From NCBI RefSeq assembly GCF_002727125.1, contig NZ_NHOA01000033.1, positions 1 through 64,000 of the forward strand: 64,000 nt of DNA, written 5' to 3'. The notes under the pieces were generated by a model that was given only the letters and a program-made list of their open reading frames with translations, ran no database searches and was not told the origin of the DNA. Origin of the DNA: Halorubrum persicum. GTDB taxonomy: Archaea > Halobacteriota > Halobacteria > Halobacteriales > Haloferacaceae. Below, one piece after another: positions 48,359-57,402 of this stretch. The position numbers were made by a program, and so were the translations under genes. Position 1 is the first letter of the stretch. Each line of letters begins with the position of its first letter.

Positions 48359-48820
48359 TCACTCCTCGTCGAGGTAGTCGACGACGAGGACGGGGACGTG
48401 TGTCGAACGCAGCGTGCGTTCGGTGACGCTCCCGAGGAGCGCCCTCCGGACCCCGGCGCGGCCGTGACTCCCCATCACGATCAGGTCGATGTCGTTGTCC
48501 TCGGCGTAGTCGGCGATCACCTTGTGCGGGCGACCGCCCGAGATGTGTTCGACGATCTCGACGCCGCGCTCGGCGCCGCGCTCGGCGACCACGCCGGTCG
48601 CCTCGTCCGCCTGCTCTTTCAGCTCTCCCATCTCGTCGAACCGACCCTGTTTGAGCCGGTCGACCTGTTCGGTCCCGAGACTGAAGTTCACGGAGTCGAT
48701 GTCGACCACGTACAGCGCGTGGACCTCGGCGTCGTACTTCTCCGCGAGGTCGAGCGCGTGGTCGACCGCGGCCTCTGCGACGTCGCTTCCGTCCGTGGGG
48801 ACAAGAATGCGCTCGTACAT
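48359..48820 (-). CDS. Universal stress protein (UspA family)
   Basis: 153 residues. ILVPTDGSDVAEAAVDHALDL opens the fold. The ATP-binding motif G-x2-G-x9-G-S is in GSHGRAGVRRALLGSVTE. HVPVLVVDY ends it. The start codon overlaps the symporter stop by one base (TAATG), so it is co-transcribed with the symporter. Usp genes are often linked to transporters in haloarchaea and may sense ATP or AMP state. Confidence 0.93.
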   Translation of the reverse strand: MYERILVPTDGSDVAEAAVDHALDLAEKYDAEVHALYVVDIDSVNFSLGTEQVDRLKQGRFDEMGELKEQADEATGVVAERGAERGVEIVEHISGGRPHKVIADYAEDNDIDLIVMGSHGRAGVRRALLGSVTERTLRSTHVPVLVVDYLDEE

Positions 48821-50586
48821 TATCGCTCCTCCTCCGCGGTTTCGTCGTCAGCTGCGCGGCCCCCGTCGGTGGCCGCGTCGTCAGCTGCGCGGCCCCCGTC
48901 GGTCACAACGTCCTCACCGCCGTCCGCGGCGACGACGTCCTCGGCAGTCTCTTGTTGCCCCATCGGCTCGGGGCTGTGACACTGCCGCACGATCCGCTTC
49001 GTTTCGAGGGACGGTTCGTCGGTCGCCAACGAGACGGCGATGGTCACCAGGAACACGATCGGTAGCGTGATGAGCGCCGACCCGATGGCGGGCATCCACT
49101 GCGCCAGTCCCGCCGACAGCGGCGCCTCGAGCGACCCGATGTACGTCGGGACGATCTGGTTGATCATCGGGATCGACCAGAGGGTCAGCCCGGTCGTCAT
49201 GCCGGCGAGCGCTCCCTGCCGGTTGGCGTTCTCCCACCACATGCCGAGGAAGAACATCGGGAACAGCACGGAGCCGGCGAGCGAGAAGGCGTACCCGACG
49301 AGCGCGGCGATCGAGGACGCGGGGTTGAGCGCGGCCAGGGTGGTCAGCGCGCCCAGCGCGACGATCGAGAGGCGGCCGACGAGGATCTGCTGGCGCTGCG
49401 TCGCGTCCTCGTTGATGATGTTCGTGTAGATGTCGTGGCTGATCGCCGAGGAGCCGGCGATGAACAGCCCGGCGACCGTCGCGATCGCCGCGGCGATACC
49501 GCCCGCCGCGACGATGCCGACGAACCAGTCCGGCAGCCCCGACAGCTGCGCCGCCAGCACGACGATGACCTCGCTGGCCGCGCCCGTCATTCCGGGATCG
49601 CCGTAGGTCGGGCTGACCGTCTGCGAGTAGAGGTCGGTGCCGAACGCCGCGAATGCGGGGGCACTCCAGTACAGGATACAGATGAAGAACAGCCCCCAGA
49701 CCGTCGACCAGCGGGCCGTCCGTTCGCTTTCGACCGTGTAGAACCGGACGAGCACGTGCGGCAGCCCGCAGGTGCCGACGATCAGCGAGAACGTCGTGGC
49801 GACCCAGAGGTAGTAGCTCGACGAGGCGAATGGTTCGGAGAACTCGCTGCCGAGCTGGCTGATCAGCGCGCCGTACTCGAGCTGCGGCAGCACCGTGGAG
49901 TAGCCGTTGGTGTAGCCGACGACGAACAGCCCGACGACGAACGCGAGGATGAGGATCACGTACTGGACCGCCTGGTTCTTCGTGGCGCCCAGCATCCCGG
50001 ACAGCGTCAGGTAGCCGACGGTGACGACCATCATCGCGACGACCATCACCTGGTACCCGTCTAAGCCGGGGATGAGGCCCCCGTAATCACCGAAGATGTA
50101 CAGGCCGACGAGCGCCATCCCCTTCGCCTGCCCGATTGCGTAGACGAAGCCGATGAGGAACGTCGTCACCGCCGCGATGGCGCGCGCGGTGTCGGAGTTG
50201 AACCGGTCGCCGACGAAGTCCGGCGCCGTGTACTTCCCGAACCGACGCAGCTGCGCGGCGAGGAAGATAAGCAGGATGAAGTATCCCGTCGTCCAGCCGA
50301 CGACGTACACCAGCCCGTAGAACCCCGCGAGCGCGATCGATGCCGCCATTCCGAGGTACGAGGCGGCCGACATCCAGTTCGCCCCGATCGCCATCCCGTT
50401 CTCGACGTTCCCGATGGATCGACCGGCGACCCACATGTTCTCGGTGTCGGCGACGCGGAAGACGAACCCGATAGTGAGGAACAGCCCCAGCATCGCGATC
50501 ACGAGGATCGACGGTGCCAGCTTGAACGAGATGTCGAGAGCCTCCGGAAGGAGGTCGCTCTGCAGGAGGAGTGAGCTTCCCATCAT
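48820..50586 (-). CDS. Sodium:solute symporter, acetate-permease-like
   Basis: 588 residues with about 13 membrane segments. Features of the SSS family are GRSIGNVENGMAIGANWMSAASYLG near segment 2 in pieces (WMSAASYLGMA), GYVTG-like loops, and SLIVGTCGLPHVLVRFYTV. This resembles ActP and other monocarboxylate/acetate symporters. The adjacent DUF4212 subunit and two acs genes support acetate as substrate. The C-terminal tail (about 540-588) is soluble and carries two 11-residue repeats shared with the small subunit. Overlaps the upstream gene by 4 nt. Confidence 0.93.
   Translation of the reverse strand: MMGSSLLLQSDLLPEALDISFKLAPSILVIAMLGLFLTIGFVFRVADTENMWVAGRSIGNVENGMAIGANWMSAASYLGMAASIALAGFYGLVYVVGWTTGYFILLIFLAAQLRRFGKYTAPDFVGDRFNSDTARAIAAVTTFLIGFVYAIGQAKGMALVGLYIFGDYGGLIPGLDGYQVMVVAMMVVTVGYLTLSGMLGATKNQAVQYVILILAFVVGLFVVGYTNGYSTVLPQLEYGALISQLGSEFSEPFASSSYYLWVATTFSLIVGTCGLPHVLVRFYTVESERTARWSTVWGLFFICILYWSAPAFAAFGTDLYSQTVSPTYGDPGMTGAASEVIVVLAAQLSGLPDWFVGIVAAGGIAAAIATVAGLFIAGSSAISHDIYTNIINEDATQRQQILVGRLSIVALGALTTLAALNPASSIAALVGYAFSLAGSVLFPMFFLGMWWENANRQGALAGMTTGLTLWSIPMINQIVPTYIGSLEAPLSAGLAQWMPAIGSALITLPIVFLVTIAVSLATDEPSLETKRIVRQCHSPEPMGQQETAEDVVAADGGEDVVTDGGRAADDAATDGGRAADDETAEEER
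48847..48912 (-). repeat. Two 33-bp units in the symporter tail
   Basis: Units encode DVVTDGGRAAD and DAATDGGRAAD (residues about 559-580), almost the same as units in the small-subunit gene. Confidence 0.8.
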
Positions 50587-51152
50587 TCGTCTGCCCCTCC
50601 GTCGGCCGCGGCGACCTCAGCACCGCTCGTGGTCTCCGTGGCGGCGCCGTGTTCGATACCGTACTTCTCGTCGAGCGCGTCCCGCTTACGGGAGTACCAG
50701 AACGAGAGGATCAGTGCGCTGGTCGGGGCGCCGAACGCGACGAGGAAGTAGTGGAGCGGGAACTGCAGGATCGGCATCGAGTTCGTCATCGTATCGGGCG
50801 CGATCCGCGTCAGGGTCACCGGTCCCCACACTGCGATGACCCAGATGGCGAATCCCGTCCAGACGATACGGAGGTGATCGCGCATGTACGGCGTGCTCGG
50901 ATTCAGGATGTTCACCTCCGCTCCGAGGTAGTCGGTGTCGTTGTGCTTCTGTGCCGCGCCTGTGGCGACGCCGCCGTCGGTGGCCGCGTCGTTCGCTTCG
51001 CGGCCCCCATCGGTCGCCGCGTCGTCGGCTGCGCGGCCACCGTCAGTGACCGCGTCGTTCGCTTCGCGGCCCCCATCGGTCGCCGCGTCGTCGGCTGCGC
51101 GGCCACCGTCAGTGACCGCGTCGTCCGAGCTTCGTGAGCTATTGTCTGTCAT
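50583..51152 (-). CDS. DUF4212 symporter small subunit
   Basis: 189 residues. A disordered N-terminal 65 residues holds five 11-residue repeats (units DAVTDGGRAAD and DAATDGGREAN). The core has two membrane segments (about 90-115 and 128-150) with RIVWTGFAIWVIAVWGP and PLHYFLVAFGAPTSAL. DUF4212 proteins accompany SSS-family acetate or monocarboxylate transporters as a small subunit. Followed with a 4-nt overlap by the large subunit. Confidence 0.92.
   Translation of the reverse strand: MTDNSSRSSDDAVTDGGRAADDAATDGGREANDAVTDGGRAADDAATDGGREANDAATDGGVATGAAQKHNDTDYLGAEVNILNPSTPYMRDHLRIVWTGFAIWVIAVWGPVTLTRIAPDTMTNSMPILQFPLHYFLVAFGAPTSALILSFWYSRKRDALDEKYGIEHGAATETTSGAEVAAADGGADE
50958..51122 (-). 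repeat. Five 33-bp units in the small-subunit gene
   Basis: Residues 11-65 are five units: DAVTDGGRAAD, DAATDGGREAN, the same pair again and a degenerate DAATDGGVATG. The units alternate, so the higher-order period is 66 bp. Confidence 0.85.
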
Positions 51153-51186
51153 GTGTTGTGGTGTGTGTTGTCGTGGTGTGTTTATG

Positions 51187-51197
51187 CGATTTTATCG
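51187..51197 (-). promoter_or_regulatory. A/T-centred palindrome in the symporter promoter
   Basis: CGAT-TTT-ATCG (CGAT-AAA-ATCG on the minus strand) lies 35 to 45 nt upstream of the small-subunit start, just beyond a TATA-like ATAAA at 51181-51185. ATCGTGA at 51194-51200 is shared with the acs1 promoter. Confidence 0.45.
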
Positions 51198-51264
51198 TGA
51201 TATTTATTCGCGGTGTCGAGCGCGTCGTCTCTCGTCTAGTGTCTCGAAAACGGTGGTGTGGCGG

Positions 51265-53259
<1,995 letters not shown>

Positions 53260-53287: not shown

Positions 53288-53295
53288 ATATAAAC
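53288..53295 (-). promoter_or_regulatory. TATA box of the first acs gene
   Basis: GTTTATAT on the minus strand is centred about 33 nt before the ATG at 53259. Confidence 0.6.
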
Positions 53296-53308
53296 GCTGG
53301 CGCTAAAT

Positions 53309-53320
53309 ACGAAAAATCGT
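53309..53320 (-). promoter_or_regulatory. A/T-centred palindrome upstream of the first acs gene
   Basis: ACGA-AAAA-TCGT lies 14 nt beyond the TATA box, at an activator-like position. ATCGTGA and ATTC follow (53316-53329), as they do in the symporter promoter. Confidence 0.45.
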
Positions 53321-53358: not shown

Positions 53359-55161
53359 TCACTCCTGTGTCGGGTGCCGGGCGCGCCGGGCGTCCTCGAA
53401 GAGCTCGTCGAGCAGCCTGCGCTGCGCCTTTCGGAGGTGATTGTGGAACGTCGGCGAGGAGACGCCCATGGCGTCGGCCACTTCCTCGGCTGTGCTCCCC
53501 CGCGGCCAGTCGAAGTATCCGCCGTGGTACGCGGCCGACAGCGCGGCCCACTGCCGGTCCGTGAACCGGTCCGTGACCCCCTCCCGCAGCGAGTCCTCGC
53601 TCCGCGGCGACCGCGGGACCGACTCCTTGCTGGCGAGCCGCGCGTCGGCGAACGCGGCCCGGAACCCGTCGGCGACGGGCCGAACGTCGGCCCCCTCCGG
53701 GAGGTCCGCGACGACCCGTACCAGTCCGTCCTCGGCGGTCGCGTCGCGGACGGTCGCGCCGTGCTCGGTGAGCGTCCGGACCGCGGAGCCGCCCTCCACG
53801 CGGGCGGACACGTCGCAGCCGTCCTCACGCGTCTCGATCACGCGGAGGTCCGAGACGCCTGACGCGTCGGCGGCCACGTCGGCGAGCGCCTGGGGGTGCG
53901 CCCCCTCGACGGAGAGGTAAAAGCGAGAGGCGTCGTCGTCGACCGCCACCGTCGAGGCCAGCTCGATCCGACAGCCGAGCGCCGCGCTCGCTCGGGCGAG
54001 GAACGCCCCGTCGTCGCCGGTGTGGAACTCCACCTCGGTCACCGCGTCGGAGTGGAGCAGGTTTCGCCACCGCCCCGCGGTCACGGCCCAGCCGAGACAC
54101 CGACCGAGTGCCGCGATCTCGCGCCGTTCGACCGGCGAGACGGGTGAGACGGCGGAGGCGGACGATCCCTCGTCGGCGACGACACACAGCGTGCCGTGAG
54201 TCACGTCGCGGTAGCGGACGGGAACCGCGACTGCCGGCCGGCCGGCGGTCGCGGTCGCCCCCTCGGTCGCGACCGGCTCCCCCGCCTCGGCCGCGTCTCG
54301 GCACAGGCCGTCGCCGCCGACGCCGCGGTCGACCAGCGACTCCCGGTCGACGCCGGCGACGCCCGCGATCTCGACGCGATCGCGGTCCTCCATCCCGCGG
54401 ATGACCCACGCCTCGGCCCAGCGGTCGGACGCGACCACGCCGCCGGGGACCGCCGTGAGGGGCGTCGACCGGTCGTCTCCGCTCGCGAGCGCCTCGAACC
54501 CCTCGAGGGCGGTCGGCGCTGCGTCCGCGGTGGGCCCGTCCGACGAGTCGGCCCGACGGCCGGCGATCGCCGAGGCGATCGCGTCCCCGTCGAGGGGTCC
54601 GAGGTAGCCGTCGAGCGTCGCCATCGTCTCCCAACCGCCGGCCTCGCGGACCGCGTGGGGGTCCACGCCGCGGTCGACGAGGAGCCGCCGCGCGAAGGTC
54701 CGCCGGAGGTCGCGGGGTGTCGCGTCGGGATCGACCGCCCCGTCGGTTCGCGCGGCGGCGCGCTCCGCGGTCTCGCTCACGATCATCTGGACCCGCCGGG
54801 GGGACACGTCGACGAACGGCTCCGACTCGTCGAGGTCCGCGCTCTCCGCGTACCGTCGCAGCTCAGCCGCCAGCGACGCCGGAATCGTCGTCTCGCGGTC
54901 GATCTCGCTCCGGTCTCTCGACGGAGGCTTCGCCTCGCCCTCGCCGCCCGCGGCCCCGGTTCCCGTGTCGTCAGCCGGGACGGCGAGGAGAGCGAGGTCC
55001 GCGTCGCTCTCCGTCTCTCGGAGGTGTCGCGGGGCGACGCGGGTGATCTCGCCGGTCCGGAGTCCGGCTTCGCCGCCGAGGCGGACGACCAGCGCGGCGC
55101 GGTACGTCTCCGCCGCGGTCACGAGCGCGTCGTACGCGTCGGCGTCCAACCCCTCTACCAT
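53359..55161 (-). CDS. Bat-like transcriptional regulator with recombinase-like N-domain
   Basis: 600 residues. The first 200 residues resemble a tyrosine recombinase catalytic domain: EAGLRTGEITR (Arg35), TPRDLRRTFARRLLVDRG with Arg153, GGWETMATLDGYLG with Trp177 and Tyr186; the usual first His is Arg150. A GAF-like middle (about 260-385), a bacterio-opsin-activator domain (about 400-530) and a C-terminal HTH_10 (about 540-590, GSTAEEVADAMGVSSPTFHNHL) follow. Family members are one-component regulators. It lies between two acs genes, so acetate control is the likely role. ATG 55161 is preferred over GTG 55176 because TAAATCTT at 55191-55198 is 33 nt upstream. Confidence 0.9.
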   Translation of the reverse strand: MVEGLDADAYDALVTAAETYRAALVVRLGGEAGLRTGEITRVAPRHLRETESDADLALLAVPADDTGTGAAGGEGEAKPPSRDRSEIDRETTIPASLAAELRRYAESADLDESEPFVDVSPRRVQMIVSETAERAAARTDGAVDPDATPRDLRRTFARRLLVDRGVDPHAVREAGGWETMATLDGYLGPLDGDAIASAIAGRRADSSDGPTADAAPTALEGFEALASGDDRSTPLTAVPGGVVASDRWAEAWVIRGMEDRDRVEIAGVAGVDRESLVDRGVGGDGLCRDAAEAGEPVATEGATATAGRPAVAVPVRYRDVTHGTLCVVADEGSSASAVSPVSPVERREIAALGRCLGWAVTAGRWRNLLHSDAVTEVEFHTGDDGAFLARASAALGCRIELASTVAVDDDASRFYLSVEGAHPQALADVAADASGVSDLRVIETREDGCDVSARVEGGSAVRTLTEHGATVRDATAEDGLVRVVADLPEGADVRPVADGFRAAFADARLASKESVPRSPRSEDSLREGVTDRFTDRQWAALSAAYHGGYFDWPRGSTAEEVADAMGVSSPTFHNHLRKAQRRLLDELFEDARRARHPTQE

Positions 55162-55359: not shown

Positions 55360-57321
55360 TTACTCCCCGCGAACCGCCGACTCGATCTCGCCGACGACCT
55401 CGGGATTGCGGAGCGCGCTCACGTCGCCGAACTCGTCGCCGCGCGCGATGTCCTCCAGCAGGCGCCGCATGATCTTTCCGGAGCGCGTCTTCGGCAGGTC
55501 GGGCGTAAACACGACCCGGTCGGGGCGCGCCACGTCGCCGACCGCTTGCGCCAGTCGCTCGCCGATCGCGTCGCGGATCGACTCGTCCGGGTCGACGTCG
55601 CCCCGAGTCGTCACGTACGCGACGATCTGTCCGTCGCCGTCGCCGACGACCGCGGCCTCGGTGACGCCCTCGGCCTCGACGATGGCCGACTCCAGCTCCC
55701 CGGTGTTGAACCGGCGGGTGCGGACGTTGATCACGTCGTCGACCCGGCCGAGGATCGTCACGTAGCCGTCCTCGTCGACGGTGGCGCCGTCGCCGGTGCG
55801 GTACCGCCACCCGTCCTCGCCGTCCAGCCAGTACTCCCGTCGGTACCGCTCGTCGCCCTCGCGGAGCCCGCGGAGCATGCCGGGCCAGGGCGCGGCGATC
55901 GTGAGGTACCCCGGATCGCCGGGATCGACCGGCTCGCCGTCCTCGTCGACGACGCGCGCGTCGATCCCCGGCAGCGGCGGCCCGACCTTCCCGGGCTTCA
56001 TCGGGGCGATCCCCGGCAGCGTCGCGAGGGAGATGGCGCCCGTCTCGGTCTGCCACCACGTGTCGACGATCGGCGCCTCCCCGCCGCCGACGTGCTCGCG
56101 GTACCAGCGCCACGCCTTCGGCGTGATCGACTCGCCGACGGTCCCCAGCAGCCGGATCGAGGACAGGTCGTGGCCGTCGGGGTACTCCGCACCCCACTTC
56201 ATGAACGACCGGATCGCGGTCGGCGAGGTGTAGAAGACGCTGACGGCGTTGCGCTCGATCAGGTCCCACACGCGGTCGCGGTCGGGGTAGTCGGGCGACC
56301 CCTCGTAGAGGACGCTCGTGGTCCCGACGGAGAGGGGACCGTACACGCCGTAGGAGTGCCCCGTGATCCAGCCGATGTCGGCCGCGCACCAGTAGGTGTC
56401 GTCGGGGCGCACGTCGAGCACGTTCCGGGTCGTCCACGCGACGTGCGCGAGGTAGCCGCCGGTCGCGTGCTCGACGCCTTTCGGTCGCCCCGTGGTCCCC
56501 GAGGTGTACATCACGAAGAGGAGGTCGGTGGCGTCGCGCGCGACCGGCTCGACCGTCACCCCGTCGTGGGCGTCAACGATCGCCTCGTACTCGTGTTCGT
56601 CGTCGCCGAGGGGAACGTCGAGCGCGTCGCCGAGCCGGTCGACGACCACCGTCGCCGACAGGTCGGCGTCGGCCCGGAGGCGGGCGTTGTCCGCCTTCGA
56701 CTTCTGGTTGAACGCGTCCTCCCGGCGGTAGTAGCCGTCGCAGGTGACGAGGTACGACGAGTCGGCGGCGTCGATCCGGGTCGCGAGCGCCTCCGCCGAG
56801 AGCCCGGCGAACACGACGTTGTGGGGCGCACCGATACGGGCACAGGCCAGCATCGCGATCGGGAGCTCGGGGATCATCGGGAGGTACAGCGTGACCACGT
56901 CGTCCTCCTCGACGCCCAGATCGCGGAGTCCGGCCGCGAGCGCGTTCACCTCCCGGTGGAGGTCGAGGTAGGTGTACGACCTGCGCTCCCCGCGCTTGCC
57001 GAACCAGCGGATCGCGAGCTGGTTCCGGCGCTCGTCGAGGTGGCGGTCGACGCAGTTCGCCGCGGCGTTGAGCCGCCCGTCCGGGAACCACTCGTAGAAC
57101 GGCGGGTCGCTGTCGTCGAGGACGGTCTCGTAGGGGCGATCCCAGTCCAGCAGGTCGGCGGCGCGGTGCCACGCCGACGGCCCCTCCTCGGCGAAGGCCT
57201 CGTACAGCTCCGGATCGCTCGCGACGGCCCGATCGCTGAACGCGGTGGGCGGCTCGACAGCCTCGTCGTCGCCGGCGGCGACCCCGTCCATCCGCCGGCC
57301 GTCGACTCCGGCGTAATCCAT
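55360..57321 (-). CDS. Acetyl-CoA synthetase-like protein (second copy)
   Basis: 653 residues. The whole ACS core is present: YTSGTTGRPKGVEHATGG, WWQTETGAISLA and catalytic Lys616 in PKTRSGKIMRR. The A8 hinge region reads DDVINVRTRRFNTGELESAI instead of SGHRLGT, so the loop that contacts CoA differs sharply from the first copy. It may use another acid (propionate or similar) or have altered CoA affinity. The start at 57321 (MDYAGVDGRR) has GTATACTT on the plus strand about 27 nt upstream. Confidence 0.92.
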   Translation of the reverse strand: MDYAGVDGRRMDGVAAGDDEAVEPPTAFSDRAVASDPELYEAFAEEGPSAWHRAADLLDWDRPYETVLDDSDPPFYEWFPDGRLNAAANCVDRHLDERRNQLAIRWFGKRGERRSYTYLDLHREVNALAAGLRDLGVEEDDVVTLYLPMIPELPIAMLACARIGAPHNVVFAGLSAEALATRIDAADSSYLVTCDGYYRREDAFNQKSKADNARLRADADLSATVVVDRLGDALDVPLGDDEHEYEAIVDAHDGVTVEPVARDATDLLFVMYTSGTTGRPKGVEHATGGYLAHVAWTTRNVLDVRPDDTYWCAADIGWITGHSYGVYGPLSVGTTSVLYEGSPDYPDRDRVWDLIERNAVSVFYTSPTAIRSFMKWGAEYPDGHDLSSIRLLGTVGESITPKAWRWYREHVGGGEAPIVDTWWQTETGAISLATLPGIAPMKPGKVGPPLPGIDARVVDEDGEPVDPGDPGYLTIAAPWPGMLRGLREGDERYRREYWLDGEDGWRYRTGDGATVDEDGYVTILGRVDDVINVRTRRFNTGELESAIVEAEGVTEAAVVGDGDGQIVAYVTTRGDVDPDESIRDAIGERLAQAVGDVARPDRVVFTPDLPKTRSGKIMRRLLEDIARGDEFGDVSALRNPEVVGEIESAVRGE

Positions 57322-57346
57322 GATACTACCTCGCAATCGAAGGAAT

Positions 57347-57354
57347 GTATACTT
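57347..57354 (-). promoter_or_regulatory. TATA box of the second acs gene
   Basis: AAGTATAC on the minus strand is centred about 29 nt before the start codon at 57321. Confidence 0.5.
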
Positions 57355-57402
57355 TGTCCGCGACCGCGGCACGCGAGCGGAGCCGAGGAGCGGCCCGTGG
57401 GA

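Follow-up and report, generated by a model that had tools for sequence, protein, structure and literature searches.

Regulators of the Bat/DmsR type in Halobacterium end in a helix-turn-helix domain of the HTH_10 type, which in Bat is joined to a GAF-type sensor and a PAS/PAC domain, and a regulatory upstream activating site (UAS) lies 5′ of bop (PMC1447603). A tyrosine-recombinase fold has elsewhere been turned to gene regulation: MrpR, the repressor of the bacterial prophage SPbeta, has lost recombination and consists of a core-binding domain and a recombinase domain with no sensor (PMC10516654). The two kinds of part meet in fam30-04, an archaeal tyrosine-recombinase family catalogued in a 2021 review, whose accessible text gives it no function (PMC8371274). 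As regards acetate metabolism, the acs7-HVO_A0155-ssf-uspA28 genes of Haloferax volcanii are co-transcribed on acetate but on neither glucose nor casamino acids, and acetate is taken up by the symporter of this operon (PMC7746861); a highly similar cluster is present in H. mediterranei (PMC11784441). Our literature search found no regulator for the acetate-induced acetate-activation operon of haloarchaea.

Here we describe a candidate for this role in a window of 64,000 nucleotides from Halorubrum persicum (contig NZ_NHOA01000033.1, positions 1 to 64,000), whose genome of 3.6 Mb contains eight BAT matches. The regulator gene is an unbroken frame of 600 codons (Table 1), and its ATG at 55161 agrees with the Halorubrum orthologues, which share this Met and often have a stop codon immediately 5′ of it. 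Phage_integrase was matched at residues 5–186 with 30.3 bits (Pfam cut-off 27.1 bits), and Phage_integrase, BAT and HTH_10 were all found in 47 of 47 aligned homologues. The GAF match is weak in the window copy (E 0.011) and clear in 29 of the 47 homologues, and the full-length AlphaFold2 (AF2) model resembles GAF structures such as 3ci6 in Foldseek searches. A sensor thus stands ahead of BAT, as in Bat-type proteins, and the fusion to a Bat-type regulator proposed in the earlier note is borne out. The regulator differs from Bat in having an integrase domain rather than a PAS/PAC domain at its N-terminus, and in its position at an acetate locus. A chance Pfam match was considered as a reading and is excluded by profile, structure and family-wide conservation. 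Four orthologues (L161, L165, L167 and L168) have a PAS domain inserted after the integrase part and ahead of GAF, possibly a second sensor input.

Table 1. Features of the regulator gene and the surrounding acetate locus, in window coordinates.
Feature	Coordinates	Strand	Basis
UspA-like protein, operon end	48359..48820	-	ORF, synteny
SSF-family symporter (ActP-like)	48820..50586	-	Pfam, synteny; ActP function shown in H. volcanii (PMC7746861)
DUF4212 small protein, adjoins symporter	50583..51152	-	Pfam, synteny
Downstream AMP-forming acetyl-CoA synthetase	51265..53259	-	Pfam, synteny, promoter spacing
Candidate upstream activating site, TCGTATTTAG-N8-TTTATA	53289..53312	-	TTAG 8 nt upstream of downstream-acs TATA box
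Regulator gene, 600 aa (integrase domain, GAF, BAT, HTH_10)	53359..55161	-	ORF, Pfam, orthologues
HTH_10 DNA-binding domain, residues 533–584	53410..53565	-	Pfam E 4e-20, above cut-off
BAT domain, residues 372–526	53584..54048	-	Pfam E 1e-41, above cut-off
GAF-type sensor domain, about residues 219–341	54139..54507	-	Pfam in homologues; AF2, Foldseek
N-terminal tyrosine-recombinase catalytic domain, residues 1–206, most likely non-catalytic	54544..55161	-	AF2, XerA fold and profile, residue loss
Y186, nucleophile position	54604..54606	-	Tyr in window copy, lost in 23/50 orthologues
R150, replaces His of HxxR	54712..54714	-	His in 4/50 regulators, 30/30 stand-alone integrases
R122-R123-x-x-M126 (RRVQM)	54784..54798	-	R122, R123, M126 the same in all regulators but variable among stand-alone integrases
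Beta-hairpin, catalytic Lys site in recombinases	54898..54978	-	Variable, mostly Lys-less in orthologues
Upstream acetyl-CoA synthetase	55360..57372	-	Pfam, synteny

A recombinase-like fold had been suggested for residues 1–200, with AlphaFold and Foldseek named as the check, and this check upheld it. Residues 1–206 were modelled by AF2 with a pLDDT of 91.2 and a pTM of 0.87, and the top Foldseek match of the model was XerA (5hxy, E 5e-7); the best matches comprised XerA, XerH, Cre and the Tn1549 integrase, and phage integrases were matched too. A profile built from 50 orthologous N-terminal domains detected Pyrococcus abyssi XerA (4a8e) with an E value of 3e-19 and the second XerA structure (5hxy) with 2e-10. 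By profile, model and structural match alike, the domain has the catalytic-domain fold of an active tyrosine recombinase. It comprises the catalytic domain alone, however, whereas XerA has a core-binding domain as well as the catalytic set (the aligned residues in 4a8e are R, K, H, R, H and Y).

The residues named in the earlier note, R35, R150, R153, W177 and Y186, were correctly identified. We compared these and other positions between 50 non-redundant regulators and complete stand-alone haloarchaeal integrases (n = 29). The complete R-K-H-R-W-Y set occurs in all 29 stand-alone enzymes and in none of the 50 regulators. R153 and W177 are invariant among the regulators (50/50) and R35 is Arg in 45 of them, whereas any Lys in the beta-hairpin is found in 4/50 regulators as against 29/29 stand-alone integrases. 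Position 186 is Tyr in 27 regulators, Leu in 11, Phe in 6, His in 4 and Glu and Ala in one each. Loss of this Tyr requires at least seven changes on the tree, four of them forced by well-supported branches, and took place in several independent lineages. The replacement of His by Arg150, pointed out in the earlier note, is real but is not the main sign of degeneration; the loss of the hairpin Lys and of Tyr186 are stronger signs. Loss of catalysis, previously a matter of inference, is now backed by residue loss throughout the family. An active recombinase was considered and rejected on this residue loss; judged from its residues, the domain most likely does not recombine DNA.

Other positions are strongly conserved. 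E38 and R89 are nearly or fully invariant across the regulators, and the N-terminal domain contains 12 invariant positions in all. In Halorubrum species pairs its dN/dS ranges from 0.20 to 0.36 and is below that of the linker and GAF part in every pair; since the domain is under purifying selection, it is in use rather than decaying. Retention of an Arg/Arg/Trp pocket in the absence of Lys, His and Tyr fits binding of the DNA backbone without cleavage, although R153 and W177 could be retained for folding alone. Like MrpR, the N-terminal domain shows the recombinase fold without the catalytic set. The chemistry of the loss is different: in MrpR the first Arg and the His are gone while Lys and Tyr remain (PMC10516654), whereas the regulators have retained Arg/Arg/Trp but no longer have Lys, His and, in many cases, Tyr, and their domain is joined to a sensor and an HTH.

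Orthologues with the fused architecture in one ORF are widespread in many families of Halobacteria, and in a search of the wider phylum all strong end-to-end matches fell within this class. The supposed rarity of the fusion is therefore not borne out, all the more since it was catalogued in 2021: the regulator can be assigned to fam30-04 by its Pfam combination of Phage_integrase, BAT and HTH_10, with GAF_2 in some members (PMC8371274). A widespread, characterised fusion of known function had been named as evidence against the original proposal; widespread it is, but the accessible text of the review attaches no function to fam30-04, and describes its domain makeup and not active-site loss, acs linkage, a promoter element or a role (PMC8371274). 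Already known, then, are the domain combination, as far as that text goes (PMC8371274), and the principle of a recombinase fold turned repressor (MrpR, PMC10516654); the family-wide active-site loss, the origin, the acs linkage and the promoter element are new.

Concerning the origin, a tree of N-terminal domains rooted on other haloarchaeal recombinases placed all 50 regulator domains in one group (support 99) beside stand-alone enzymes, so that a single fusion event is the simplest reading. The nearest sequence relatives found are stand-alone haloarchaeal integrases of about 200 aa (for example L113:1438-2034 and P0002), which likewise consist of the catalytic domain only but possess the whole R-K-H-R-W-Y set and lack regulator domains. 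They are present in most Halobacteria searched, and the N-domain profile run against the window genome gave two matches, one to the regulator and one to a 198-aa stand-alone integrase whose active site is complete. On this phylogenetic evidence, the domain appears to have arisen once, near these enzymes. None of the phage records searched with the regulator domain matched, the stand-alone integrase gave one weak match to a Haloferax phage, and a scan of viral contigs found nothing; the source of the domain is therefore placed only among haloarchaeal stand-alone integrases. In L113:806-2034 (G000:C43) the 198-aa integrase with its full active-site set is preceded by a small ribbon-helix-helix-like protein, and this segment possibly belongs to a mobile element. 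In Halorubrum kocurii the regulator is split into two pieces in different frames (L065:6001-7822; residues 1–317 and 306–599), which is a frameshift or a sequencing error.

Almost all loci with sufficient flanking DNA share the gene order acs, regulator, acs, DUF4212, SSF symporter, UspA. The order from acs to SSF is also annotated in Haloferax lucentense, Haladaptatus halobius and Halococcus dombrowskii, where UspA is absent in some and the regulator is named a 'bacterio-opsin activator domain-containing protein'. The regulator adjoins acs in every copy checked, even where DUF4212 and the symporter are absent or elsewhere, and across 53 genomes DUF4212 and the regulator co-occur, with exceptions both ways. 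The acs7 operon is the H. volcanii counterpart of the window locus, with the regulator gene expected between acs8 and acs7, and it is in H. volcanii that acetate induction has been shown. A literature search found no paper naming the regulator, none with the Haloferax orthologue names HVO_A0157 or HFX_5130, and no binding, expression or mutant study of the regulator or its orthologues.

We then considered which sequence the regulator might bind. The downstream acs starts at the ATG at 53259; a longer ORF start, at 53289, runs over the TATA box. Upstream of this box lies a candidate site with a Halorubrum-specific extension, CACGATTTTTCGTA, that reaches towards 53324. We scanned for the pattern [TC]TAG-N8-[TC]TTA, in which [TC]TTA represents the TATA box some 35 nt upstream of the acs ATG, and found it in the downstream-acs promoter of 66 of 71 regulator loci (0.8 expected by shuffling) and, once each, in 15 of 16 held-out loci fetched later. 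Most regulator loci without the exact element have 9-nt spacing or a variant TATA (L086, L097, L110, L098, L160). In 20 genomes without the regulator, from overlapping families and with acs orthologues mostly 75–84% identical, the element was found once, although a TATA-like box stands at a comparable position before most of these acs orthologues. The difference is significant by Fisher's test (p about 4e-14, with genomes treated as independent despite their relatedness); the association of element and regulator is a correlation, drawn from genomes that are not independent. G047 offers a comparison within one genome: the element is present at the acs next to the regulator (L156) and absent from a distant acs-DUF4212-symporter operon (L209). 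The conserved candidate element sits beside the TATA box, at the place expected for Bat-type activators. In two regulator-less genomes (L175 and L178) TTAG lies 10 nt, not 8, before the acs TATA, as a remnant or as a site for another factor.

The acs, regulator and symporter promoters had all been proposed as targets; the link to acs held, but the candidate site lies only before the downstream acs, not at the other two. A search for a shared operator before DUF4212, the regulator and the upstream acs gave 0, 0 and 1 matches, respectively. Nor was a wider regulon found in the window genome, where nothing else matched the Halorubrum form well and the sole full match to TCGTATTTAG-N8-TTTATA is the site itself.

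Taken together, we give a probability of about 0.7 to the reading that the protein is a one-component Bat-type regulator of acetate activation whose N-terminus is an exapted, non-cutting integrase domain. In such a mechanism HTH_10 would bind the TTAG-N8-TATA element with the assistance of the integrase domain, which may serve as a second DNA-binding or oligomerizing module through its retained Arg/Arg/Trp phosphate-contact residues. Acetate, acetyl-CoA or an energy signal might be sensed at the GAF/BAT part, upon which the regulator would bring TBP/TFB to the neighbouring TATA box and, in the manner of Bat, switch on acs-DUF4212-symporter-UspA from a site just upstream of that box. Since the candidate site has this position, the effect is probably activation and not repression. 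More tentatively, the integrase domain might itself read part of the TTAG-N8-TATA site, or pair regulator dimers in a synapse-like assembly.

It is possible, if doubtful, that the N-terminal domain is dead and off the DNA, a dimer, tetramer or protein-contact module that leaves HTH_10 alone to read the site. Recombinases oligomerize via their catalytic domain, the catalytic residues are gone, and the regulator-specific invariants R122, R123 and M126 could form an interface; yet R35, R153, W177, E38 and R89 are near or fully invariant, as expected if phosphate contacts are kept. Retention of some DNA breakage, for example a topoisomerase-like nicking that alters promoter topology, is very improbable. 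The window copy does have Tyr186, R35, R153 and W177, and archaeal SSV-type integrases are, to our knowledge, without the classic His of HxxR. However, the same-locus orthologues have Leu, Phe, His, Glu or Ala for Tyr in 23 of 50 cases, few regulators retain a hairpin Lys, and none has the full set. Even less credible is a decaying prophage remnant or chance read-through with a functionless N-terminal part, as might be imagined from the kinship with mobile-element-like stand-alone integrases and from a few frameshifted copies such as L065: a single ORF is kept across many families, with the invariant positions noted above and dN/dS well below 1.

The element, for its part, might be bound by another factor, such as a Bat-like protein or a TFB variant, with the regulator acting elsewhere, for instance in repression or at acs genes other than this one. 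Haloarchaea have several Bat-like proteins, as the BAT matches of the window genome illustrate, and that the regulator binds the element is a prediction. We nevertheless consider this unlikely, as the element accompanies the regulator gene, is missing from regulator-less genomes and from the distant acs operon of G047, and has a single good site in the window genome. If the preferred reading of an exapted Bat-type regulator is true, a mobile-element-type recombinase would have become a sensor-coupled transcription regulator throughout an archaeal class, in parallel to the phage repressor MrpR though by a chemically different route. It would provide haloarchaeal acetate activation with a named candidate regulator and a candidate binding site, and suggests a function for fam30-04, a recombinase family catalogued but unexplained. 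The regulator and its matching conserved DNA element offer a ready test of the passage from mobile-element enzyme to metabolic regulator; should the integrase domain read the site, a former recombinase would give sequence specificity to a metabolic switch across much of Halobacteria.

The N-terminus of DUF4212 (50970–51127) and the C-terminus of the SSF symporter (about 48820–48930) share a short repeat, TDGGRAADDAATDGG, which in DUF4212 is encoded by a 33/66-bp tandem array. Before DUF4212, at 51160–51230, TATCACGATAAAATCGCATAAA is similar to TATCACGATTTTTCGTATTTAG, the Halorubrum-specific sequence in the acs promoter. In another Halorubrum genome (G008), a short repeat array between the regulator and acs marks a contig break (L204 and L205), and the element is present on both ends.
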